Assembly (NCBI GenBank): GCA_944393505.1
Contig: CALYAK010000014.1
Span: 1-36,475, forward strand
Direction: 5' to 3'
Origin: an uncultured Clostridia bacterium
GTDB lineage: Bacteria; Bacillota; Clostridia; TANB77; CAG-508
DNA length: 36,475 nucleotides
Below are positions 1 to 35,989 of this stretch, one piece after another. The stretch's first letter is position 1; every line of letters starts with the position of its first letter. The translations under genes were made by a program, and so were the position numbers. The notes below the pieces were generated by a model, which saw nothing but the letters and a program-made list of their open reading frames with translations, ran no database searches and was not told the DNA's origin.

Positions 1-1009
1 GTTACAATTGGTCTGGATGCATCTCTTCTCACATTTAATGTTGGTGCTGTCGATAGTCTCATTCCTCCACTATCGTACGTATATGCTACGATTGCAAAAC
101 TTCCATCGATTGCAATACGGAAGGTTGTTCCATTTGCAATATCTACTTCTCCTGTATCTACCTCTCCTGCTTGATATTCCGTATTTCCAATTGTTCCATT
201 ACTATATGCTGTTCCTCTTACTCGATACGTTACTCTTGAGGATCCTGTATCTGTTCCTAATACACGTAGGGTTATATTACTCGTATACCATTCATTTTGT
301 CCCATATTTCCACTAGCTACACTGACTGTTACTCCATTTCCTGCTGTTGAGCCTGTTTCTCTTTTTAACCACATAATACTTGAGTTTGATTTTTTTCCTT
401 CTAAATCATACGAATATGCTGTAATGGTATATTCTCCATCTTTCGTAAAAGTTAAAGTTCCACCATTTTCAATATCAATCTCTTTAATTAATCCACTTGG
501 ATAAAGTTCGTTATTAATTTCATCTACCGTTGTTGTTAAGATATATTTAATCCTTAATGTTTTATCCGTTGTTGCAATTTGGATGGTTACATCACTTCGG
601 AAAAAGCTTGCTGCGATTTCTTCTCCTTCTAGTACGGTAATGGTTGGTGGTACAGCATCTCCTCCGATCATACTTCCATCACTTCCACCAGTGTTGGTGT
701 TTGTTCCTCCTGTGTTACTACCACCTTGGTTTCCACTTCCTCCCGATCCACCGGAACCAGATTCTCCTCCTTCTGAACTTCCTCCTGTATCGGTACCCGG
801 AATAATGCCAATCCCCGTATAGAGCTGATTATCTCTTAACTCATTTTGTAGAGCTGCAAGTTGTTGGTTATCATATTCTGTTTCATTCGTTATCATATTT
901 TTGGTATCTTTTGCTTGAAAGATAATTCCATCTTCTCCTATTACTGCATTTAGAGTGATTCCTGCTAGAATAACAAGCACTACTATTGTTACTAATAGTG
1001 CAAAATTTA
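1..1009 (-). repeat. Long direct repeat, copy A (pair with 26574-27568)
   Basis: The DNA and translation match 26574-27568 in the same orientation. They share the hydrophobic helix, the stretch to PGTDTGGSSEGGESGSGG, and two Ig-like modules. The Gly/Ser linker differs by a few codons. The pair is about 26.5 kb apart and flanks essential genes (pheST, priA and others). Confidence 0.75.
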
Positions 1010-1043
1010 AGAAGGAAGCAAGATTGATTCTTACTTCCTTCTT
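1009..1043 (-). terminator. rpn copy 1 terminator / cassette-boundary hairpin
   Basis: A 15-bp stem with a 5-nt loop. On the minus strand AAGAAGGAAGTAAGA pairs with TCTTGCTTCCTTCTT through one T-G wobble. It lies three bases after the rpn copy 1 stop. In the plus direction it is followed by a T run, so it may work both ways. Its left arm ends eight bases from the first conserved codon of the start-less surface-protein copy. Confidence 0.75.
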
Positions 1044-1045
1044 TT

Positions 1046-1891
1046 TTAGTCTTCTAATTTTCTAATTTCTTCTTCGCTTAGTCCTGTCAGTTTTCCAATT
1101 AAGCTAATTTCTAATTTTTCTTTTAGCATCTTTTTTGCAATCTCTTTTGTTTTTTCAATCTTTCCTTGTTCTTTTCCTTCTTGCAGTCCTGATGCTCTTG
1201 AAGATGCTTCATCTCGAATTGCTTTTTCTCTCCATTCAGCAAATCTTTGCAATTCTTCTTCTTCACTCATTTGACTTAATTTCTCATTTGCTTCTTTTAA
1301 TTCTTCATTCTCTTTCATTGCTACTTTCACCCTTTCTGATTCTGGGTTATCGATGAAAAACAGCCAATCTAATAACTCGCCCTCTTCTTTTTCTTTCCCC
1401 TTAATTTTTTCTAATTCAATTATATGAATTTCTAATTTGTCTGTCAAAATGATTTTTCTTCCTTTTTCCTCGATTATCTTCCATTCTGTATGATATTCTA
1501 GCTCTTCTAATCCATTTATTAAAAAATCTGTTATTAATATTATAATTGTTCGATCTAGTTTTTGATATTCTTCTCCTTCCTTAATTCCTTTTATGTATAG
1601 TCTAGACCAATAATACAAGATTCTCTCCTTGATATCTTGTTTTTTTACCACCTGCATTTCTATATTTACTTTTTCTTTTCCGTTTACTTCTACTAGTACA
1701 TCTAAAATTCCTAACTTTCCTCCCCTTTTTTCTCTTCTTAAAATAGGATTTTTACTTAAATCTAATTGATCAATTTTCTCGTCAAGTACTTTCTCTATAA
1801 ACCTTTTGGTTATTTTTTCATTTCCAACTTCTCCAAATAACCTTTGAAATACCAAATCAATTTTGGGAGATAGCATTTTTATTTTTGTCAT
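1046..1891 (-). CDS. Rpn/PD-(D/E)XK nuclease family protein, copy 1
   Basis: 281 aa, recombination-promoting nuclease/transposase-associated family (PF12784 type). The N-terminal signature LSPKxDxVFQRLFGE is present. The nuclease core carries D64 (GILDV) and E78-x-Q80 (IEMQ), the D...ExQ version of the PD-(D/E)XK active site. The C-terminus is charged, helical and coiled-coil-like, with EGKEQG. I chose the start at 1891 by alignment with the other two copies (MPEYK.., MSEYK..) and by the AAAGGA upstream; an earlier in-frame ATG exists but lacks support. The start overlaps the stop of a 10-codon upstream ORF (ATGA). A conserved internal ATG at codon 192 (1318) could give a 90-aa C-terminal product. 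The family is known for DNA cleavage, RecA-independent recombination and phage defence. The role here is inferred. Confidence 0.9.
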   Translation of the reverse strand: MTKIKMLSPKIDLVFQRLFGEVGNEKITKRFIEKVLDEKIDQLDLSKNPILRREKRGGKLGILDVLVEVNGKEKVNIEMQVVKKQDIKERILYYWSRLYIKGIKEGEEYQKLDRTIIILITDFLINGLEELEYHTEWKIIEEKGRKIILTDKLEIHIIELEKIKGKEKEEGELLDWLFFIDNPESERVKVAMKENEELKEANEKLSQMSEEEELQRFAEWREKAIRDEASSRASGLQEGKEQGKIEKTKEIAKKMLKEKLEISLIGKLTGLSEEEIRKLED

Positions 1892-1920
1892 ACGTATATT
1901 CCTTTCATTATTTTTGGCAT
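1888..1920 (-). CDS. Short upstream ORF (leader peptide) of rpn copy 1
   Basis: A ten-codon ORF, MPKIMKGIYV, whose TGA overlaps the rpn copy 1 ATG. The CATGCC context and the MPK start are shared with short ORFs before the two other rpn genes, and each ends within 0-4 bases of the nuclease start. This suggests translational coupling. Its own ribosome binding site is weak. Confidence 0.4.
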   Translation of the reverse strand: MPKIMKGIYV

Positions 1921-1999
1921 GAGAAATAAACATCTATCGCTCATAGATTTTTTTATTTAACTATTCTATTATTATTTTTTACTCGTGCTTGGAATTTTT

Positions 2000-6069: not shown

Positions 6070-6335
6070 AACAAAAAGACCAATTCAATCCTTTTTAGGA
6101 CGAATTGGCCGTGGTACCACCTAATTTTATTAATTTTCATTAACCTCTACTGCTTTTAACGGAGCAACCCGCTTCTTCCTACTGAAATCATCCGATTCTT
6201 TCAGAGAAAGTCCGAAAAAGTGAAATTTCTATTTTAGCGAATCTTGATGAGATCTCAGCAGGTATTCTCATCTCTCTGTTAGCTTCTTTTGCTAAAATAT
6301 ACTTTGCTTTTTCCTTGGATTCTTTTTTCTATGTG
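6070..6335 (-). promoter_or_regulatory. T-box leader, tRNA-Phe specific
   Basis: The T-box signature AGGTGGTACCACGG is present on the minus strand (6110-6123). It is followed by a terminator hairpin (GGCCAATTCGTCC ... GGATTGAATTGGTC) and a T run. Upstream, a Stem I-like region is closed by TAGC/GCTA with the distal arm GATGAG/CTCATC. The triplet TTC (6239-6241), a Phe codon, abuts the closing helix and is the likely specifier. This matches the downstream pheS and pheT genes. Uncharged tRNA-Phe is expected to stabilise the antiterminator. Confidence 0.9.
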
Positions 6336-19186: not shown

Positions 19187-19368
19187 GCTCTCACCTTACC
19201 CTCTGCAATTTCTACCGCAGCTGTTGTAACTGGTGACTCATAAGTTTTATCAATTAAAACAGGACTTCCTAGTGCAATTTGTCTTGCTCTTTTTGCTGTT
19301 ACGATAACAAGAACAAACTTATTATCAACTTTTGTTAATAATTCCTTTACGGTTGGTTTTACCATCAT
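19180..19368 (-). CDS. rpoZ: RNA polymerase omega subunit
   Basis: 62 aa. The conserved block KFVLVIVTAKRARQIALGS (17-35) and the short C-terminus with YESPVTTAAVEIAEGKV identify omega, which helps assemble beta-prime. It overlaps gmk by 7 bases and follows remA by 14. A GGGGG run lies upstream of the tandem ATG ATG start. Confidence 0.93.
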   Translation of the reverse strand: MMVKPTVKELLTKVDNKFVLVIVTAKRARQIALGSPVLIDKTYESPVTTAAVEIAEGKVRAC

Positions 19369-19382
19369 AATTAAAATTCCCC

Positions 19383-19637
19383 CTATTCTTCCTCAATGAT
19401 TTCATCTTTTTCTAATCTTCCTGCTACTGTTTCTGGTTGAACGGCAGATAAAATAATGTGTCCGGAATCCATAATAAGAACTGCTCTCGTTCTTCTTCCA
19501 TACGTAGCATCTACTGCCATACCAGAATCTTTTGCTTCTTGTACGATTCGTTTAATTGGAGCTGATTCTGGACTAACAATTGCGATAATTCGATTTGCTG
19601 ATACAATATTCCCAAATCCAATATTAATTAATTGCAT
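19383..19637 (-). CDS. remA: DUF370 extracellular matrix regulator RemA-like
   Basis: 84 aa. The N-terminus [20 protein letters not shown] and [27 protein letters not shown] are diagnostic of the DUF370/RemA family. These are DNA-binding ring-shaped regulators of matrix and osmoprotection genes in Bacillus. I chose MQLINIG (19637) because AAAGGAG lies before it; an upstream in-frame start would overlap yicC and contain that site. Its function outside Bacillus is inferred. Confidence 0.93.
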
Positions 19638-19650
19638 CCTCGACTCTCCT

Positions 19651-20526
19651 TTACTCAATATTTTGAACTTGTTCTCGAATATCTTCTAAAATGGTTTTGA
19701 TTTCAATAACCAAGTTCGTAATTTCTAGTTTTCCAGATTTTGAACCAATGGTGTTAGTTTCTCGATTCATTTCTTGAATTAAAAAGTCAAGTTTTTTTCC
19801 GATTGGCTGATCATCTTGTAATAAATTCTTCATCTGTAATAAATGGCTTTTTAATCTTGTTAATTCTTCTTCAATCGAGACTTTATCTGCATAAATAACG
19901 GTTTCTTGTGCAAGTCTTGTTTGATCCACTACATCTGTTTTTAAAATTTCTTTAATTCTTTCCTCTAATTTTACTACATAATCTTCAAGAAGTCCAGTAG
20001 ATTCTAAGGAAATTTGTTCTACTAAGTTTTCGATCTTCTGTCTTCTTTCTTCTAAATCTTCTTGTATTTTCTTTCCTTCCTCTTGTCTCATTTGAAGAAA
20101 TTGTGCAATTGCTTCTTGCAAAGTTTCATTTAATTCCATCCAAATGATGTCAGATCCATCTTCTTCTACCTGTAAATTAAAGACATCTGGCATTCTTACT
20201 AAATCAATCACTCGAATTTCTTTGTTTAGTTCATTTTCTTCTGCCAATTCTTTTAACTCGGTTAAATATTCTTTTACAAGCTCATGATTGATTCTTACTT
20301 TTTTTCCTTCATCGCTATAATTATTAAACGTAATCGATACATCAATTTTTCCACGCGTTACATTTTTTAATACTTCTTTTCGGATTTTATCTTCGAAATA
20401 TCCAATATTTCTTGGCATACGAATGCTTAAATCACTATACTTATGATTCACACTTCGGATTTCCACAATATATTCACGGTTATTGATTTCTTTATGGGCT
20501 CTTCCAAACCCTGTCATACTTTTCAT
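19651..20526 (-). CDS. YicC/YloC family endoribonuclease
   Basis: 291 aa, the usual length. The N-terminus [13 protein letters not shown] and [19 protein letters not shown], and the C-terminal block [44 protein letters not shown], are the family hallmarks. YicC proteins are endoribonucleases that affect small RNA stability. It is 13 bases before remA, the conserved yicC-remA-gmk-rpoZ neighbourhood. Confidence 0.95.
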
Positions 20527-22811: not shown

Positions 22812-22886
22812 TGGTTGGGGTACTGTGATTCGAACACAGGAATGTCGGAGTCAGAGTCCGATGCCTTACCGCTTGGCGATACCCCA
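22812..22886 (-). tRNA. tRNA-Gln (anticodon CTG)
   Basis: 75 nt including an encoded CCA. The acceptor stem TGGGGTA/TACCCCA, discriminator A, the D-arm with AGCGGTAAGGC, anticodon stem TCGGA/TCCGA with 7-base loop CTCTGAC, and the T-arm CTGTG-TTCGAAT-CACAG all fold. The anticodon CTG (22852-22854 on plus as cag) reads CAG codons. Confidence 0.96.
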
Positions 22887-22983: not shown

Positions 22984-23862
22984 CTATTTTAACTTTAGAA
23001 TTTCTTCTTTACTTAGTCCTGTTAATTCCATAATTATATTAATATCCATTTTCTTTACCAGCATCTTTTTGGCTATTTCTTCTTTTTCTTTTTGTTTTCC
23101 TTCTTTTATTCCCTCTTTCCTTCCTTTTTCTTCTCCTATTGCTATTCCTTCTCGTCTTCCCATTCCTTTTACTGATGCTTCATCATGTAGTGCTTTTTCC
23201 CTCCACCATGCTAACCTTTGCATCTCTTCTTCTTCACTCATTTGATTTAACTTCTCATTTGCCTTCTCTAATTCTTCATTCTCTTTCATTGCTTCTCTCA
23301 CCCTTTCTGCTTTCGGGTTATCGATGAAAAACAGCCAATCTAACAGCTCGTCCTCTTCTTTTTCTTTCCCCTTGATTTTATTTATTTCTAGTATATGGAT
23401 TTCTAGCTTCTCTGTCAAAATCTTTTTTCTCCCTTTTTCCTCAATTATCTTCCATTCTGTATGATATCCTAACTCTTCTAGCCCTTTTATCTCATATTCA
23501 CTTATTAATACTACTATTGTTCTTTCTAACTCAAAATACTCTTCCCCTTCTTGTATCCCTCTTCCATATAACCTTGACCAATAATACAATAATCTTTCTG
23601 GCATATCATCTTTTTTCGCTACTTGCATTTCTACATTAATCTTCTCTCTTCCATTAAACTCTACTACTACATCTAATATCCCTAATTTTCCATGAATTGT
23701 TTCTCTTCTTAAAATTGGATTCTTACTTAAATCTACTTGATCTATTTCCTCTCCTAATATTTTCTCTACAAACCTTTTGGTTATCTTTTCACTTCCTACT
23801 TCTCCAAATAACCTTTGAAATACCACATCTAATTTTGGTGATAACAATTTATATTCTGGCAT
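22984..23862 (-). CDS. Rpn/PD-(D/E)XK nuclease family protein, copy 2
   Basis: 292 aa, a close paralogue of the genes at 1046 and 35156. It has LSPKLDVVFQRLFGE, D64 (GILDV) and E78-x-Q80 (VEMQ). The C-terminus is longer than in copies 1 and 3 because of extra EG/KG units (GRREGIAIGEEKGRKEGIKEGKQKEKEE), then the shared end KKMLxKKMDIN...ELTGLSKEEILKL. AGAGG precedes the ATG. A nine-codon ORF ends three bases upstream. The conserved internal ATG at codon 192 (23289), behind AAAGGGTGA, would give 101 aa. The gene lies just downstream of the Gly-rich surface-protein copy. Confidence 0.9.
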   Translation of the reverse strand: MPEYKLLSPKLDVVFQRLFGEVGSEKITKRFVEKILGEEIDQVDLSKNPILRRETIHGKLGILDVVVEFNGREKINVEMQVAKKDDMPERLLYYWSRLYGRGIQEGEEYFELERTIVVLISEYEIKGLEELGYHTEWKIIEEKGRKKILTEKLEIHILEINKIKGKEKEEDELLDWLFFIDNPKAERVREAMKENEELEKANEKLNQMSEEEEMQRLAWWREKALHDEASVKGMGRREGIAIGEEKGRKEGIKEGKQKEKEEIAKKMLVKKMDINIIMELTGLSKEEILKLK

Positions 23863-24123: not shown

Positions 24124-24165
24124 TAAAAAATGAAGAGGAAAACAATAGATAGTGCTTTCCTCTTC
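24124..24165 (-). terminator. Terminator after surface-protein copy 2
   Basis: On the minus strand GAAGAGGAAA...TTTCCTCTTC followed by ATTTTTT, 20 bases after the TAA at 24186. It insulates the rpn copy 2 promoter from upstream transcription. Confidence 0.8.
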
Positions 24166-24185
24166 GATATTCTAAAGTATATGGA

Positions 24186-27100
24186 TTATTCTACTAAGGT
24201 TATTCTTGCATAACCATTGCCACTATGACCTGTTTCATTTCCTCCACCTGGAGCCACAAAAGATGTGTTCCCTGCTTTTGTAGAAGCATTACTTAAATAA
24301 TATTGAGATCCCAATGCATATCCTGACGGTTTAGAGGAGCTTGCTGTTAATATATATCCAGATCCACCGACCTCCTCCAGCCCACCAAGCTGAGCCTCCT
24401 CCATACCAACCACCACCGTCCACCTCCAGCTCCAGCACTTGTACTAGTCCAACTTCCTCCTTGTCCAAAAGAACCAGCATTTCCACCACCTCCACCTCCT
24501 CTTCCTCCGGCAGTTTGCGTTCCACCGCCTCCTGGAGTATTAGATCCTGTTAATCCTGCGCCGCCAACATCTCCTCCTCCTGCACCTCCATTAATTCCTT
24601 GAGAAGGATTATTTCCATGAGCACCACCACCACCTCCTCCGGCAACAATGATTCTATTATATAAACTAGTACTATTAACTCTCATATCAGTCGCTCCCCC
24701 TCCACTTCCAGCAAGATATGTAACATTGCTATGAGTTGTAGTAGAACCTCCTCCATTATATCCCCCCGATACAGAAGAATAAGTAGTCGTCCCTGTTTTT
24801 CCTTCACCTCCAACATAAACATATATCATCGTCCCAGAAGATAACGTTACAGTTCCTACAGAATACCCACCTTTTCCACCATATACAGTTACATTATTAG
24901 CCTTTCCTGTTCCCCCTTGAGCGCCCCATACTTCTAATTTATATGTTCCTGTTACTGGTACTGTAAAGGTTTGTACCGATCCTGTATAAGCAAAACTCTG
25001 TGATGTGAACGGAATCTTTGTTGTTGTAATTTGTGTCTCTTTAAAATTTGTATTTCCCGCTTTATCTTTTACCACTACCTTTATTGTATAAGTAGTTAAT
25101 TGCGTTAATCCTGTTATTGTATAACTACTTGCTGTTGTTGTTCCTTTACTTGCATTGTTTGCTAAATATTGATACGTTCCACTACTTGCTAGTCCACTGG
25201 TTCCATCACTTGCGGTTACTTTTACATCTACTGAATCATGTTCTAGATTACTAGTTGTTAAATTTGATATCGTTGGTCCTACTGTATCTTTTGTTATGAC
25301 TAGATTACTACTTGTTGTACTTCTTCCTGAATAATCATAGATGTATGCTGTAATTGTCCAAGTCCCATCTGCTGTAATCGAAAATGTTCCATCATTTACA
25401 ATCTCTACTTCTCCTGTATTTACTTGTTCGTTTACCGTTACCGTTTTACTTCCAATCGCTCCACTTCCTTTTGCTGTTCCACTTACTCGGTAAGTTACCT
25501 TCTTTAATGGACTAGTTGCATCACTTCCTACAATCCTTACTGTTACATTGCTTCTATAATAACTTGCTTCTCCTTGTGTTCCACTTGCTACACTTGGTGT
25601 ATTTGCAACTGGATTTACTGTATCTCTGGTTACCACAATTCCTGTAGCTACTACCGATTTTCTTCCTGCTTTATCATATGTATATCCTTTAATCGTCCAC
25701 CTTCCATCTGCTTGAATCTTAAAGGTACTTCCATTTGCAATATCCGTTTCTGTTATATTAACTTGTTGTCCACTTGTTACACTCACTCCTCCTATGTTTC
25801 CATTTCCTGTTGCTGTTCCTGTTACCGTATACGTTGTTTTCTTGTAACAGGTATCATCTTGACTGGTTAATCTTACATCAATATCACTTCTGTAATACGT
25901 TGCTTCTCCCATTGTTCCACTTGCTACCTCAATAATTGGTGGTTCTGGTGTTACCGTATCTCTTGTTACTTCATAGGTATTCGTACTTACTTTTACGTTA
26001 TTATCATCATAAGTATGAATCTTAATCGTCCAGTTTCCATCTGCTCGGATTCGTATTGTCTTTTCATTTCCCATTGCTAGTTCATCTTCTGTTAGAGCCA
26101 CTCCTTTATCATAATAGGTTCCATCCATTTCTCCTGCACCAGTTGTCGTTCCTAATATCTGATACGTTACTTTTGAAATATTTACATTGTTTTCATCTTG
26201 TCCCGTTAAACTTACATCCACATCCGTACTACAATACTTTCTTGCTCCTTCTACTCCTCCACTTACCGTATCTCCTACTGTTGGAGTATTACTAATCCAG
26301 ATTGCTGGTTTTGAGATAACATCGGTTGAAGTTAAGTTTCCCGCATTATCTTTTACCACTACATACATATCATAGGTTTTATCTTGTGCTAGTCCTTCAT
26401 ATAAATGTGTTTTTTCCATACTTGAAATGACATCGTTATCTTCATACACTAAACTAGTTGCTAGTTTGTAATAATAGCTATAACGATTTTCTAAATCTAG
26501 ATCGGATCCATAATCTAATGCTGTTGTTTCTAATTCAAATCCTTCTCCGATGATTTGCTCTCCTTTAAACATCTGAATGATTGGTCTTGATGCATCTCTC
26601 TTTAATGTCATAGTTTCTGATGTAGATAATCGATTTCCATATTGGTCATAGGTATATGCTATAATAGAAAACTCTCCATCAATTGCGATCTTAAATGTTG
26701 TCCCATTATTAATCTCTACTTCTCTTGTATCAATCTCTCCTGATTGATACTCTGTATTTCCGATTGTTCCATTACTATATGCTATTCCTTTTACTAAATA
26801 GGTTACTCTGGTTGCTCCAATATCGGTTCCTAATACACGAATTGTTACATTACTCGTATACCAGTCATTTTCTCCCATGTTTCCACTCGTTATTTCTAAT
26901 CCAACCCCATTTCCAGATGCTGTTTGTGTATCTTTCTTAATCCACATTACACTTGAGTTAGATTTCTTTCCTTGTAGATCATATGCATAGGCTGTAATCG
27001 TATATTCTCCATCTTTCGTAAAAGTTAACGTTCCTCCATTTTCAATATCTAGTTCTTTTACTAATCCACTTGGATAAAGTTCGTTATTTATCTCATCTAC

Positions 27101-27587
27101 CGTTGTTGTTAAAATATATTTAATTCTTTGTGTAGTATCTCTGTTAGAAATTCGTATTGTTACATCACTTCGATATAGTCCAGAAGCAACATATTCTCCG
27201 GATATAACCTCAATCGTTGGTGTAATTGCTGCTTCTCCTGTTTGTTCTCCTGTTGTACCACCTGTTCCAGTGTTTGTTCCTCCTTGGTCACCTCCACCAC
27301 CTTGACCTCCTGATCCAGATTCTCCTCCTTCTGAGCTTCCTCCAGTATCAGTACCTGGAATAATACCAATTCCCGTATATAACTGATTATCTCTTAGTTC
27401 ATTTTGCAATCCTGCTAATTGTTGCTCATCATATTCGGTTTCATTGGTAATCATATTCTTGGTATCTTTCGCTTGAAAGATAATTCCATCTTCTCCGATA
27501 ACTGCATTTAGAGTGATTCCTGCTAGGATAACAAGCACGACAATTGTTACTAATTGTGCAAAAAGCAAAATTTTAAGTTTTGTCGTC
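24186..27587 (-). pseudogene. Start-less, frameshifted pilin-like/Ig-like/Gly-rich surface protein, copy 2
   Basis: About 1,130 codons. The conserved part starts at 27559 (AQLVTIVVLVILAGITLN, a pilin-like helix) with no ATG or ribosome binding site and an in-frame TAA at 27588-27590. Order: helix and short stalk; Gly/Ser linker (about residues 75-110); two Ig-like modules of about 100 aa ending in KKDT and LKRDASRP; an FN3-like module with YVVVKDNAGN; three Ig-like modules ending in VTRDT or ITKDT; an FN3-like module with KVVVKDKAGN; and a Gly-rich domain (RIIVAGGGGGG, GGRGGGGGG). The frame breaks twice, at extra bases 24418 and 24369. Removing both restores an ORF to 24186 ending GYARITLVE. 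Probably an extracellular adhesin type. The state looks silent or decayed. Confidence 0.8.
26574..27568 (-). repeat. Long direct repeat, copy B (pair with 1-1009)
   Basis: The same hydrophobic helix, stalk, linker and first two Ig-like modules as at 1-1009. The boundary TTTTGCAC is shared, and the sequences upstream of it differ. Confidence 0.75.
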
Positions 27588-27604
27588 TTAACTCTTTGCT
27601 TTTT
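27560..27604 (-). terminator. Hairpin abutting the 5' end of surface-protein copy 2
   Basis: AAAAAGCAAA-GAG-TTAAG pairs with CTTAA-AAT-TTTGCTTTTT, an 18-base stem with a 3-base internal mismatch and a 9-base loop. The inner arm ends exactly at the first conserved codon. In the plus direction a T run follows; A/T tracts on both sides suggest a bidirectional terminator. Confidence 0.6.
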
Positions 27605-27655
27605 TCACTTTTATCTTTTTCTCTCATATATTATAAAAAGGAGAATTCTAGATTG

Positions 27656-35155: not shown

Positions 35156-35989
35156 TTATTCTTCTAGCTTTCGAATTTCTTCTTCACTTAATCCGGTTAA
35201 TTCCACGATCATGTTTAAATCCATTTTCTTTTTCAACATCTTCTTGGCGATTTCTTCCTTCTCTTGTCGAATTCCTTCTCTTCTTCCCATTCCTTTTAAA
35301 GATGCTTCATCATGAAGTGCTTTTTCCCTCCACCATGCGATCCTTTGCATTTCTTCCTCTTCACTCATTTGATTTAGTTTTTTATTTGCTTCTTGTAATT
35401 CTTCATTCTCTTTCATTGCCTCTCTCACCCTTTCTGATTTTGGGTTATCGATGAAAAACAGCCAATCTAACAGCTCATCGTCCTCATTCTCTTTCCCCTT
35501 GATTTTATTTAATTCTAGTATATGGATTTCTAACTTATCTGTCAAAATCTTTTTTCTTTCTTTTTCCTCAATTATCTTCCATTCTGTATGGTATCCTAAC
35601 TCTTCTAGCCCTTTTAGTTCAAATTCTGTGATTAAAACTACAATTGTTCTTTCTAACCCTACATATTCCTCTCCTTCTTGTATCCCTCGAGTATATAGCC
35701 TGGCCCAATAATATAAAAGTCTTTCTAAAATATCTTCTCTTTTGGCTACCTGCATTTCAAGATTGATCTTCTCACTTTCATTAAACTCCACCAATACATC
35801 TAATACTCCTAACTTTCCATGAACTGTTTCTCTTCTTAAAATGGGATTCTTACTTAAATCTACTTTCTCGATTTTTTCTCCCAAGATTTTTTCTATAAAT
35901 CTTTTTGTAATCTTTTCACTACCTAATTCTCCAAATAGCCTTTGAAATACGACATCTAATTTTGGAGATAACAATTTATATTCAGACAT
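35156..35989 (-). CDS. Rpn/PD-(D/E)XK nuclease family protein, copy 3
   Basis: 277 aa, closest to copy 2. LSPKLDVVFQRLFGE, D64 (GVLDV) and E78-x-Q80 (LEMQ) are intact. The C-terminal region between GMGRREG and KEEIAKKML is shorter than in copy 2, which has an insert of about 17 residues. AAAGGGTGA serves as the ribosome binding site, and the same string lies before the internal ATG at codon 192 (35416), which would give an 86-aa product. A seven-codon ORF ends four bases upstream of the start. An ISL3-like element begins about 310 bases upstream. Confidence 0.9.
   Translation of the reverse strand: MSEYKLLSPKLDVVFQRLFGELGSEKITKRFIEKILGEKIEKVDLSKNPILRRETVHGKLGVLDVLVEFNESEKINLEMQVAKREDILERLLYYWARLYTRGIQEGEEYVGLERTIVVLITEFELKGLEELGYHTEWKIIEEKERKKILTDKLEIHILELNKIKGKENEDDELLDWLFFIDNPKSERVREAMKENEELQEANKKLNQMSEEEEMQRIAWWREKALHDEASLKGMGRREGIRQEKEEIAKKMLKKKMDLNMIVELTGLSEEEIRKLEE

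Follow-up and report, generated by a model that had tools for sequence, protein, structure and literature searches.

In the pilE/pilS system of Neisseria, start-less and promoterless donors of a type IV pilin-like protein take part in mosaic exchange. In Moraxella, pilin inversion at tfpQ/tfpI by the Piv recombinase acts on two genes in one invertible segment, and the switching site lies inside the N-terminal coding part of the pilin gene. The vsa genes of Mycoplasma pulmonis are switched by site-specific inversion through HvsR: by DNA rearrangement, silent 3' parts acquire an upstream segment that carries the promoter, the ribosome binding site (RBS), and the 5' coding part (PMC2268961). In the Xer1 systems of M. 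agalactiae (vpma) and M. bovis (vsp), many surface genes share a 5' site and one expression signal (PMC2268961).

Here, we describe start-less copies of a pilin-like surface-protein gene in an uncultured Clostridia bacterium, two of which lie in a 36,475-nt stretch of DNA (the window, contig C14 of the draft genome). As in vsa, these putatively silent genes lack RBS and 5' coding part, apparently also a promoter, and share a precise common boundary. Unlike vsa, the copies are scattered along the chromosome and encode a pilin-like protein, the missing 5' coding stretch is short (714 nt in vsa), and neither an expression segment nor a recombinase was found. As in Neisseria, the donors are of a type IV pilin-like protein and show mosaic exchange; here, however, they are single and dispersed, every donor retains a selected helix of its own, an inverted-repeat site forms the boundary, and the expressed locus was not found. 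The placement of the site recalls Moraxella, but over twenty dispersed cassettes are involved rather than two genes in one segment. A common 5' site in many surface-protein genes is shared with vpma and vsp, where the recombinase is of the Xer type; there, the genes keep their start codons and only the promoter is moved. Our literature search found no paper on such a system.

Both window copies are on the minus strand. Copy 2 (24186..27562) encodes, from its N-terminus, a pilin-like helix, a Gly/Ser linker, Ig-like repeats, and an ALK/LTK-type Gly-rich domain. Copy 1 (1..1004) is a 5' part only, its 3' rest being lost at the contig end. The preliminary description had placed them at 24186-27587 and 1-1061, extents that are corrected here. 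Its account of their starts was confirmed: both copies begin inside the pilin-like helix without ATG or RBS, the frame being entered at (F)A.LVTIVVLVILAGITLN, and both share TTTTGCAC behind non-homologous flanks. Each also abuts a hairpin as described, with a T-run directly 5' of copy 2 (27560..27605, minus strand, stem around loop GACGACAAA) and terminator-like directly 5' of copy 1 (about 1009..1043, minus strand). An in-frame stop just upstream had been claimed for both. This holds for copy 1 (TAG, 1062-1064), but in copy 2 the TAA at 27588-27590 is out of frame and the upstream stop that is in frame is a TGA (27605-27607). Copy 2 does have a formally open TTG (27566-27568), but this lies inside the hairpin and has no Shine-Dalgarno (SD) sequence. 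A frameshift in the Gly-rich C-terminus of copy 2 had been overlooked: frame 1 runs into a stop at 24347-24349, and the gene really ends in another frame, at 24186 (...GHSGNGYARITLVE and stop). A T-box leader (6093-6324) and a tRNA gene (22815-22886) also lie in the window, again on the minus strand.

Residues 1-81 of the conserved part were used to search the host genome (1.56 Mb draft, 37 contigs, 98.3% complete). This query returned 22 near-identical copies with 90-100% amino acid identity, plus four distant paralogs. The sole congener compared, G001 (MAG CANSOY01, "uncultured Clostridium sp.", 96% complete draft; hereafter the sister), has 23 copies, every one start-less and with a boundary identical to that of the host. 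The drafts of both species break at cassette repeats. None of the 45 copies has a convincing start. No ATG, GTG, or TTG stands between the last stop and the boundary in 33 of them, an ATG without SD occurs in 6 (taken as chance), and any start codon with an SD-like motif in only 2. A stop lies within one codon of the boundary in many copies and directly before it in several host copies. Read from the sequence, these are copies of the donor type, without start and RBS. In all 22 host copies, similarity starts at one codon, ...GTA ACA AT. GT. GT. CTT... (VTIVVLVILAGITLN), and upstream sequence differs from copy to copy except for a short left arm. The boundary is often preceded by a terminator-like hairpin in both species. 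At the other end, the shared sequence of most host copies extends as far as the stop codon, behind which the terminator differs from copy to copy.

The C-terminus is of two types, the Gly-rich ALK/LTK-type domain or a different domain ending in RPVVVLK. Among the nine complete Gly-rich copies, six are frameshifted at least once in the Gly-rich C-terminus (window 24186-24400 and cassettes at C15, C11, C3, C2, and C10:64613), with the rest of the gene open. Assembly error, slippage, or decay could be the cause. About ten cassettes occupy matching loci in both species, as assessed from their orthologous upstream genes (host/sister contigs C15/C33 next to xerD, C31/C83, C35/C47, C9/C26, C4/C35, C37/C38, C14/C88, C18/C41, and C6/C82). 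Some other loci hold a cassette in one species but nothing more than a terminator between two genes in the other; cassettes are therefore also gained or lost. Searches of viral, phage, and plasmid collections returned no cassette relatives except one distant match. The copies are best read as silent cassettes forming a genome-wide archive of one large pilin-like, Ig-repeat surface protein.

The common boundary coincides with an inverted repeat around GTAACAA at all 45 copies. The site spans 25 bp. In copy 2 it lies at 27535..27559 (minus strand, GCACAATTA-GTAACAA-TTGTCGTGC), where the left arm is non-coding and the right arm codes I-V-V. In copy 1 it lies at 977..1001 (minus strand, GCACTATTA-GTAACAA-TAGTAGTGC), with 8 of 9 arm positions complementary. 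The sister consensus, GYAYGASWA-GTAACAA-TAGTCGTRC, consists of two inverted 9-bp arms with an asymmetric spacer of 7 bp between them. On average, the arms of the sister are complementary at 6.8 of 9 positions, versus 2.4 when the same right arms are paired with nearby flank (2.3-2.4 for this control across both species). In the host the complementarity is weaker, at 5.9 of 9, and mostly of the form GCA..A..A / T..T..TGC; these arms are imperfect, positions 2, 3, and 5 being seldom complementary, and part of the host left arm could be a remnant of ancestral coding sequence. The left arm does not belong to the reading frame. In the sister it often contains a stop and is kept across at least three unrelated kinds of flank; it is therefore conserved as DNA. 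These sequence features suggest that the boundary may be the site of recombination between leader and cassette.

One sister locus has the site without a cassette, followed about 70 bp on by a gene for a 376-aa prophage-type tyrosine integrase (L247, contig C25, about 19210-20435) and, further on, an excisionase-like gene. The flank of this site matches a host cassette locus. A temperate element thus appears to use the boundary site for integration, which agrees with a recombinogenic site but is not proof of use by the host. Other matches to GTAACAATNGTNG, in C1 and C34, were rejected as coincidences. Hairpin loops upstream of many cassettes in both species often contain ACGACAA, and some such hairpins stand where no co-directional gene ends and may belong to the cassette. 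Left flanks in the sister (L080-L098, L186-L188) fall into groups by about 50-110 bp of shared sequence, GGTGTACAAAATGTACC... or TGTGGTCTTTTTGGAAAG...CCGTATATAAGGTATGACTA, and are possibly accessory sequences of the site.

The truncated helix is held by selection as protein, and the copies are not relics. Over the first 30 codons, pN was 0.001 and pS 0.240 among the 22 host copies, and 0.026 and 0.455 in the sister, respectively. Over 377 aligned columns in the host, pN was 0.045 and pS 0.371; the corresponding values in the sister were 0.119 and 0.502. As a yardstick, the xerD orthologs of the two species differ at pS 0.50. Since synonymous sites are widely diverged, recent homogenisation alone cannot explain the low pN. 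The contrast between pN 0.001 and pS 0.240 in the helix implies occasional translation of the copies together with their helix.

Mosaic exchange between copies was evident from two signals. Linkage (r2) between sites drops with distance (equally low values arose in 0 of 500 and 3 of 500 permutations), and among biallelic site pairs about 70% do not pass the four-gamete test. The copies therefore recombine. Cassettes at matching loci show 0.66-0.72 nucleotide identity across species, against a random cross-species mean of 0.70, whereas identity within a genome averages 0.88 in the host and 0.80 in the sister. Because matching loci are no closer than random pairs and copies within a genome are closer, the cassettes undergo concerted evolution in each genome.

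The N-terminus resembles the type IV pilin-like kind (class III) in its helix, whereas the prepilin leader is missing from these copies; paralogs carry it (GITLxALVVTIVV). A protein search and searches with leader and site patterns found no intact leader joined to the site in the host or sister draft. A regex scan of 1.12 Mb (72% of the host genome) likewise found no leader at the site, and only three leader-bearing paralogs, all different proteins. Nor was a single expression segment (promoter, RBS, and 5' coding part) found in either draft. There was no excess of 3' ends hinting at an unseen expressed copy, with 7 unpaired 3' pieces versus 10 unpaired 5' pieces. The preliminary description had placed an expressed adhesin locus elsewhere in the genome; none with an intact leader was found in drafts that are 98% and 96% complete. 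It had itself named start-less copies throughout, with no expressed locus, as refuting it; both drafts show this, which we take as a warning sign, though the assemblies are interrupted at these repeats. Either short-read assembly and binning missed the leader locus in both species, or a different mechanism is at work. One further pilin-like paralog of the host (C6, L173, 541-1537; 332 aa, Cys-rich C-terminus) is start-less and lacks the GTAACAA site.

Two candidates were rejected. A contig end on C10, considered as an expression site, has an in-frame ATG and TTGACA but no SD, and part of its sequence recurs upstream of an unrelated gene. The XerD beside the C15 cassette, considered as a dedicated enzyme, is the housekeeping equivalog; in each of the two species xerD sits beside one cassette. 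The search for a dedicated recombinase was negative: the genome has tyrosine integrases and large serine recombinases (two of the latter at C13 and C2), but these are not specific, and large serine recombinases are widespread in the family. Pilus machinery was not found with simple motifs in 72% of the host genome.

A related genus of the same family, G020, has some 40 paralogs of the wider family, and an in-frame ATG is present in 25 of the 27 leader-bearing paralogs examined. One subfamily there behaves like the host cassettes: its cassette start occurs in two settings, behind a GITLIALV leader in C52 and behind an unrelated flank in C95. The two are identical at 310 of 312 nt and break exactly at GTAACCC. 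A contig end (C74) and a fourth cassette (C76, with ATGATTA-GTAACCC-TAATCAT) are also start-less. The ATG of the C52 leader copy is one base off frame at an A6 run, so C52 is not a clean expressed locus; error, decay, or phase variation could each explain the offset.

Cassettes have PDDEXK_2 (PF12784) nuclease-family genes as neighbours unusually often. In the window, one lies directly upstream of copy 1 (1046..1933) and one directly downstream of copy 2 (22984..23862); a third, PDDEXK_2-like gene (35156..35989) lies 486 nt from the contig end, and all three are on the minus strand. Six such genes were found in 1.12 Mb (72%) of the host genome, a portion that includes every cassette by design, and all five with known neighbours touch a cassette. 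The cassette-then-nuclease order recurs in four of these five, which may represent a single duplicated unit; the adjacencies are therefore not independent. In the sister, two PDDEXK_2 genes lie directly upstream of cassettes. The Rpn proteins of E. coli, which belong to another Pfam family (PF04754), have been connected first with RecA-independent recombination (PMC5350276) and subsequently with phage defence (PMC10327210). A role for PDDEXK_2 in cassette exchange is only a suggestion.

Selection as protein, the lack of a visible start, and the common inverted-repeat start are together best explained by leader joining at the site, as in vsa. Each cassette runs from inside the membrane helix (VTIVV...) to a stop and terminator of its own, with promoter, RBS, start, and leader missing. 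DNA recombination at the site would join it to a promoter-and-leader segment and allow expression, most likely through a site-specific recombinase acting on GTAACAA and its arms. Ordinary homologous exchange would further shuffle the cassette bodies, upstream hairpins would insulate unjoined cassettes from read-through, and cells would switch between alternative surface proteins. That silent cassettes are expressed after such joining at the boundary site is, in our judgement, evenly poised between right and wrong. The exchange between copies, the GTAACCC break in G020, and the integrase at a cassette-less sister site also favour it; the failure to find a leader-joined copy in either draft or a dedicated recombinase, the out-of-frame ATG in C52, the imperfect host arms, and the frameshifted Gly-rich C-termini weigh against it. 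A fuller picture is offered tentatively, as possible but on the doubtful side: chromosome-wide leader swapping, in which more than twenty dispersed cassettes, each starting in the 25-bp site, would share a single promoter-leader segment, site-specific recombination would pick the surface protein, phages would parasitise the site, and PDDEXK_2 nucleases would travel with the cassettes.

A Neisseria-like arrangement would have the donors feed one expressed locus in one direction by RecA-type homologous recombination, with no site-specific enzyme and a boundary that marks only where the original duplicates began. It accommodates start-less, promoterless copies and mosaics with linkage decay, donors could tolerate frameshifted C-termini, and the cassette-adjoining nucleases could make the initiating breaks. 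One-way donors, however, should not keep a helix at pN 0.001 with pS 0.24. The conserved non-coding left arm, complementary to a coding right arm, would be left unexplained, and the expressed locus was found in neither draft. One-way conversion of the pilS type thus fits less well than site joining because the boundary is an inverted-repeat site and each copy's own helix is selected, and we judge it rather unlikely. The pilS-like archive of the preliminary description survives in part: many start-less copies (22 and 23), recombination among stored copies, and selection on the coding sequence are borne out, whereas the expressed locus was found in neither draft and the one-way mechanism fits less well.

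The 45 copies with long open frames, strong purifying selection, and many loci common to two species are hard to reconcile with by-products or relics of insertions at an attachment or protein-binding site of phages or another process. Such a reading, which we consider improbable, draws on the prophage-type integrase at one sister site, the likeness of the 7-bp spacer and arms to an integrase core, and species-specific gain and loss of cassettes after terminators. Translation of each copy in place from an unusual start, or leader joining at the RNA level, would account for selection on every copy, helix included, and for a DNA-level leader found in neither draft. We hold this to be very improbable: in 33 of the 45 copies no start codon precedes the boundary, in many a stop falls no more than one codon away from it, their upstream sequences share no element beyond variable hairpins and the short left arm, and the window contains no intron family. 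Mis-joined 5' ends or pseudogenes might be suspected in MAG drafts whose contigs break inside repeats and whose Gly-rich regions carry frameshifts, but the same boundary and shared flanks recur in two separately assembled species, and long open frames with low pN/pS make artefact or decay scarcely credible.

If leader joining at the site is true, these small-genome Clostridia would keep an archive of pilin-like proteins for antigenic or phase variation, and a recombination site would be embedded in the codons of a membrane helix. The archive would take up about 5% of a very small genome, as estimated from 22 copies of about 3.3 kb in 1.56 Mb. It offers a defined 25-bp sequence to test, and leader-joined reads are predicted at any of 22 places. 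With this system, one could ask cleanly whether archives of this kind evolve through site-specific joining or through homologous conversion.
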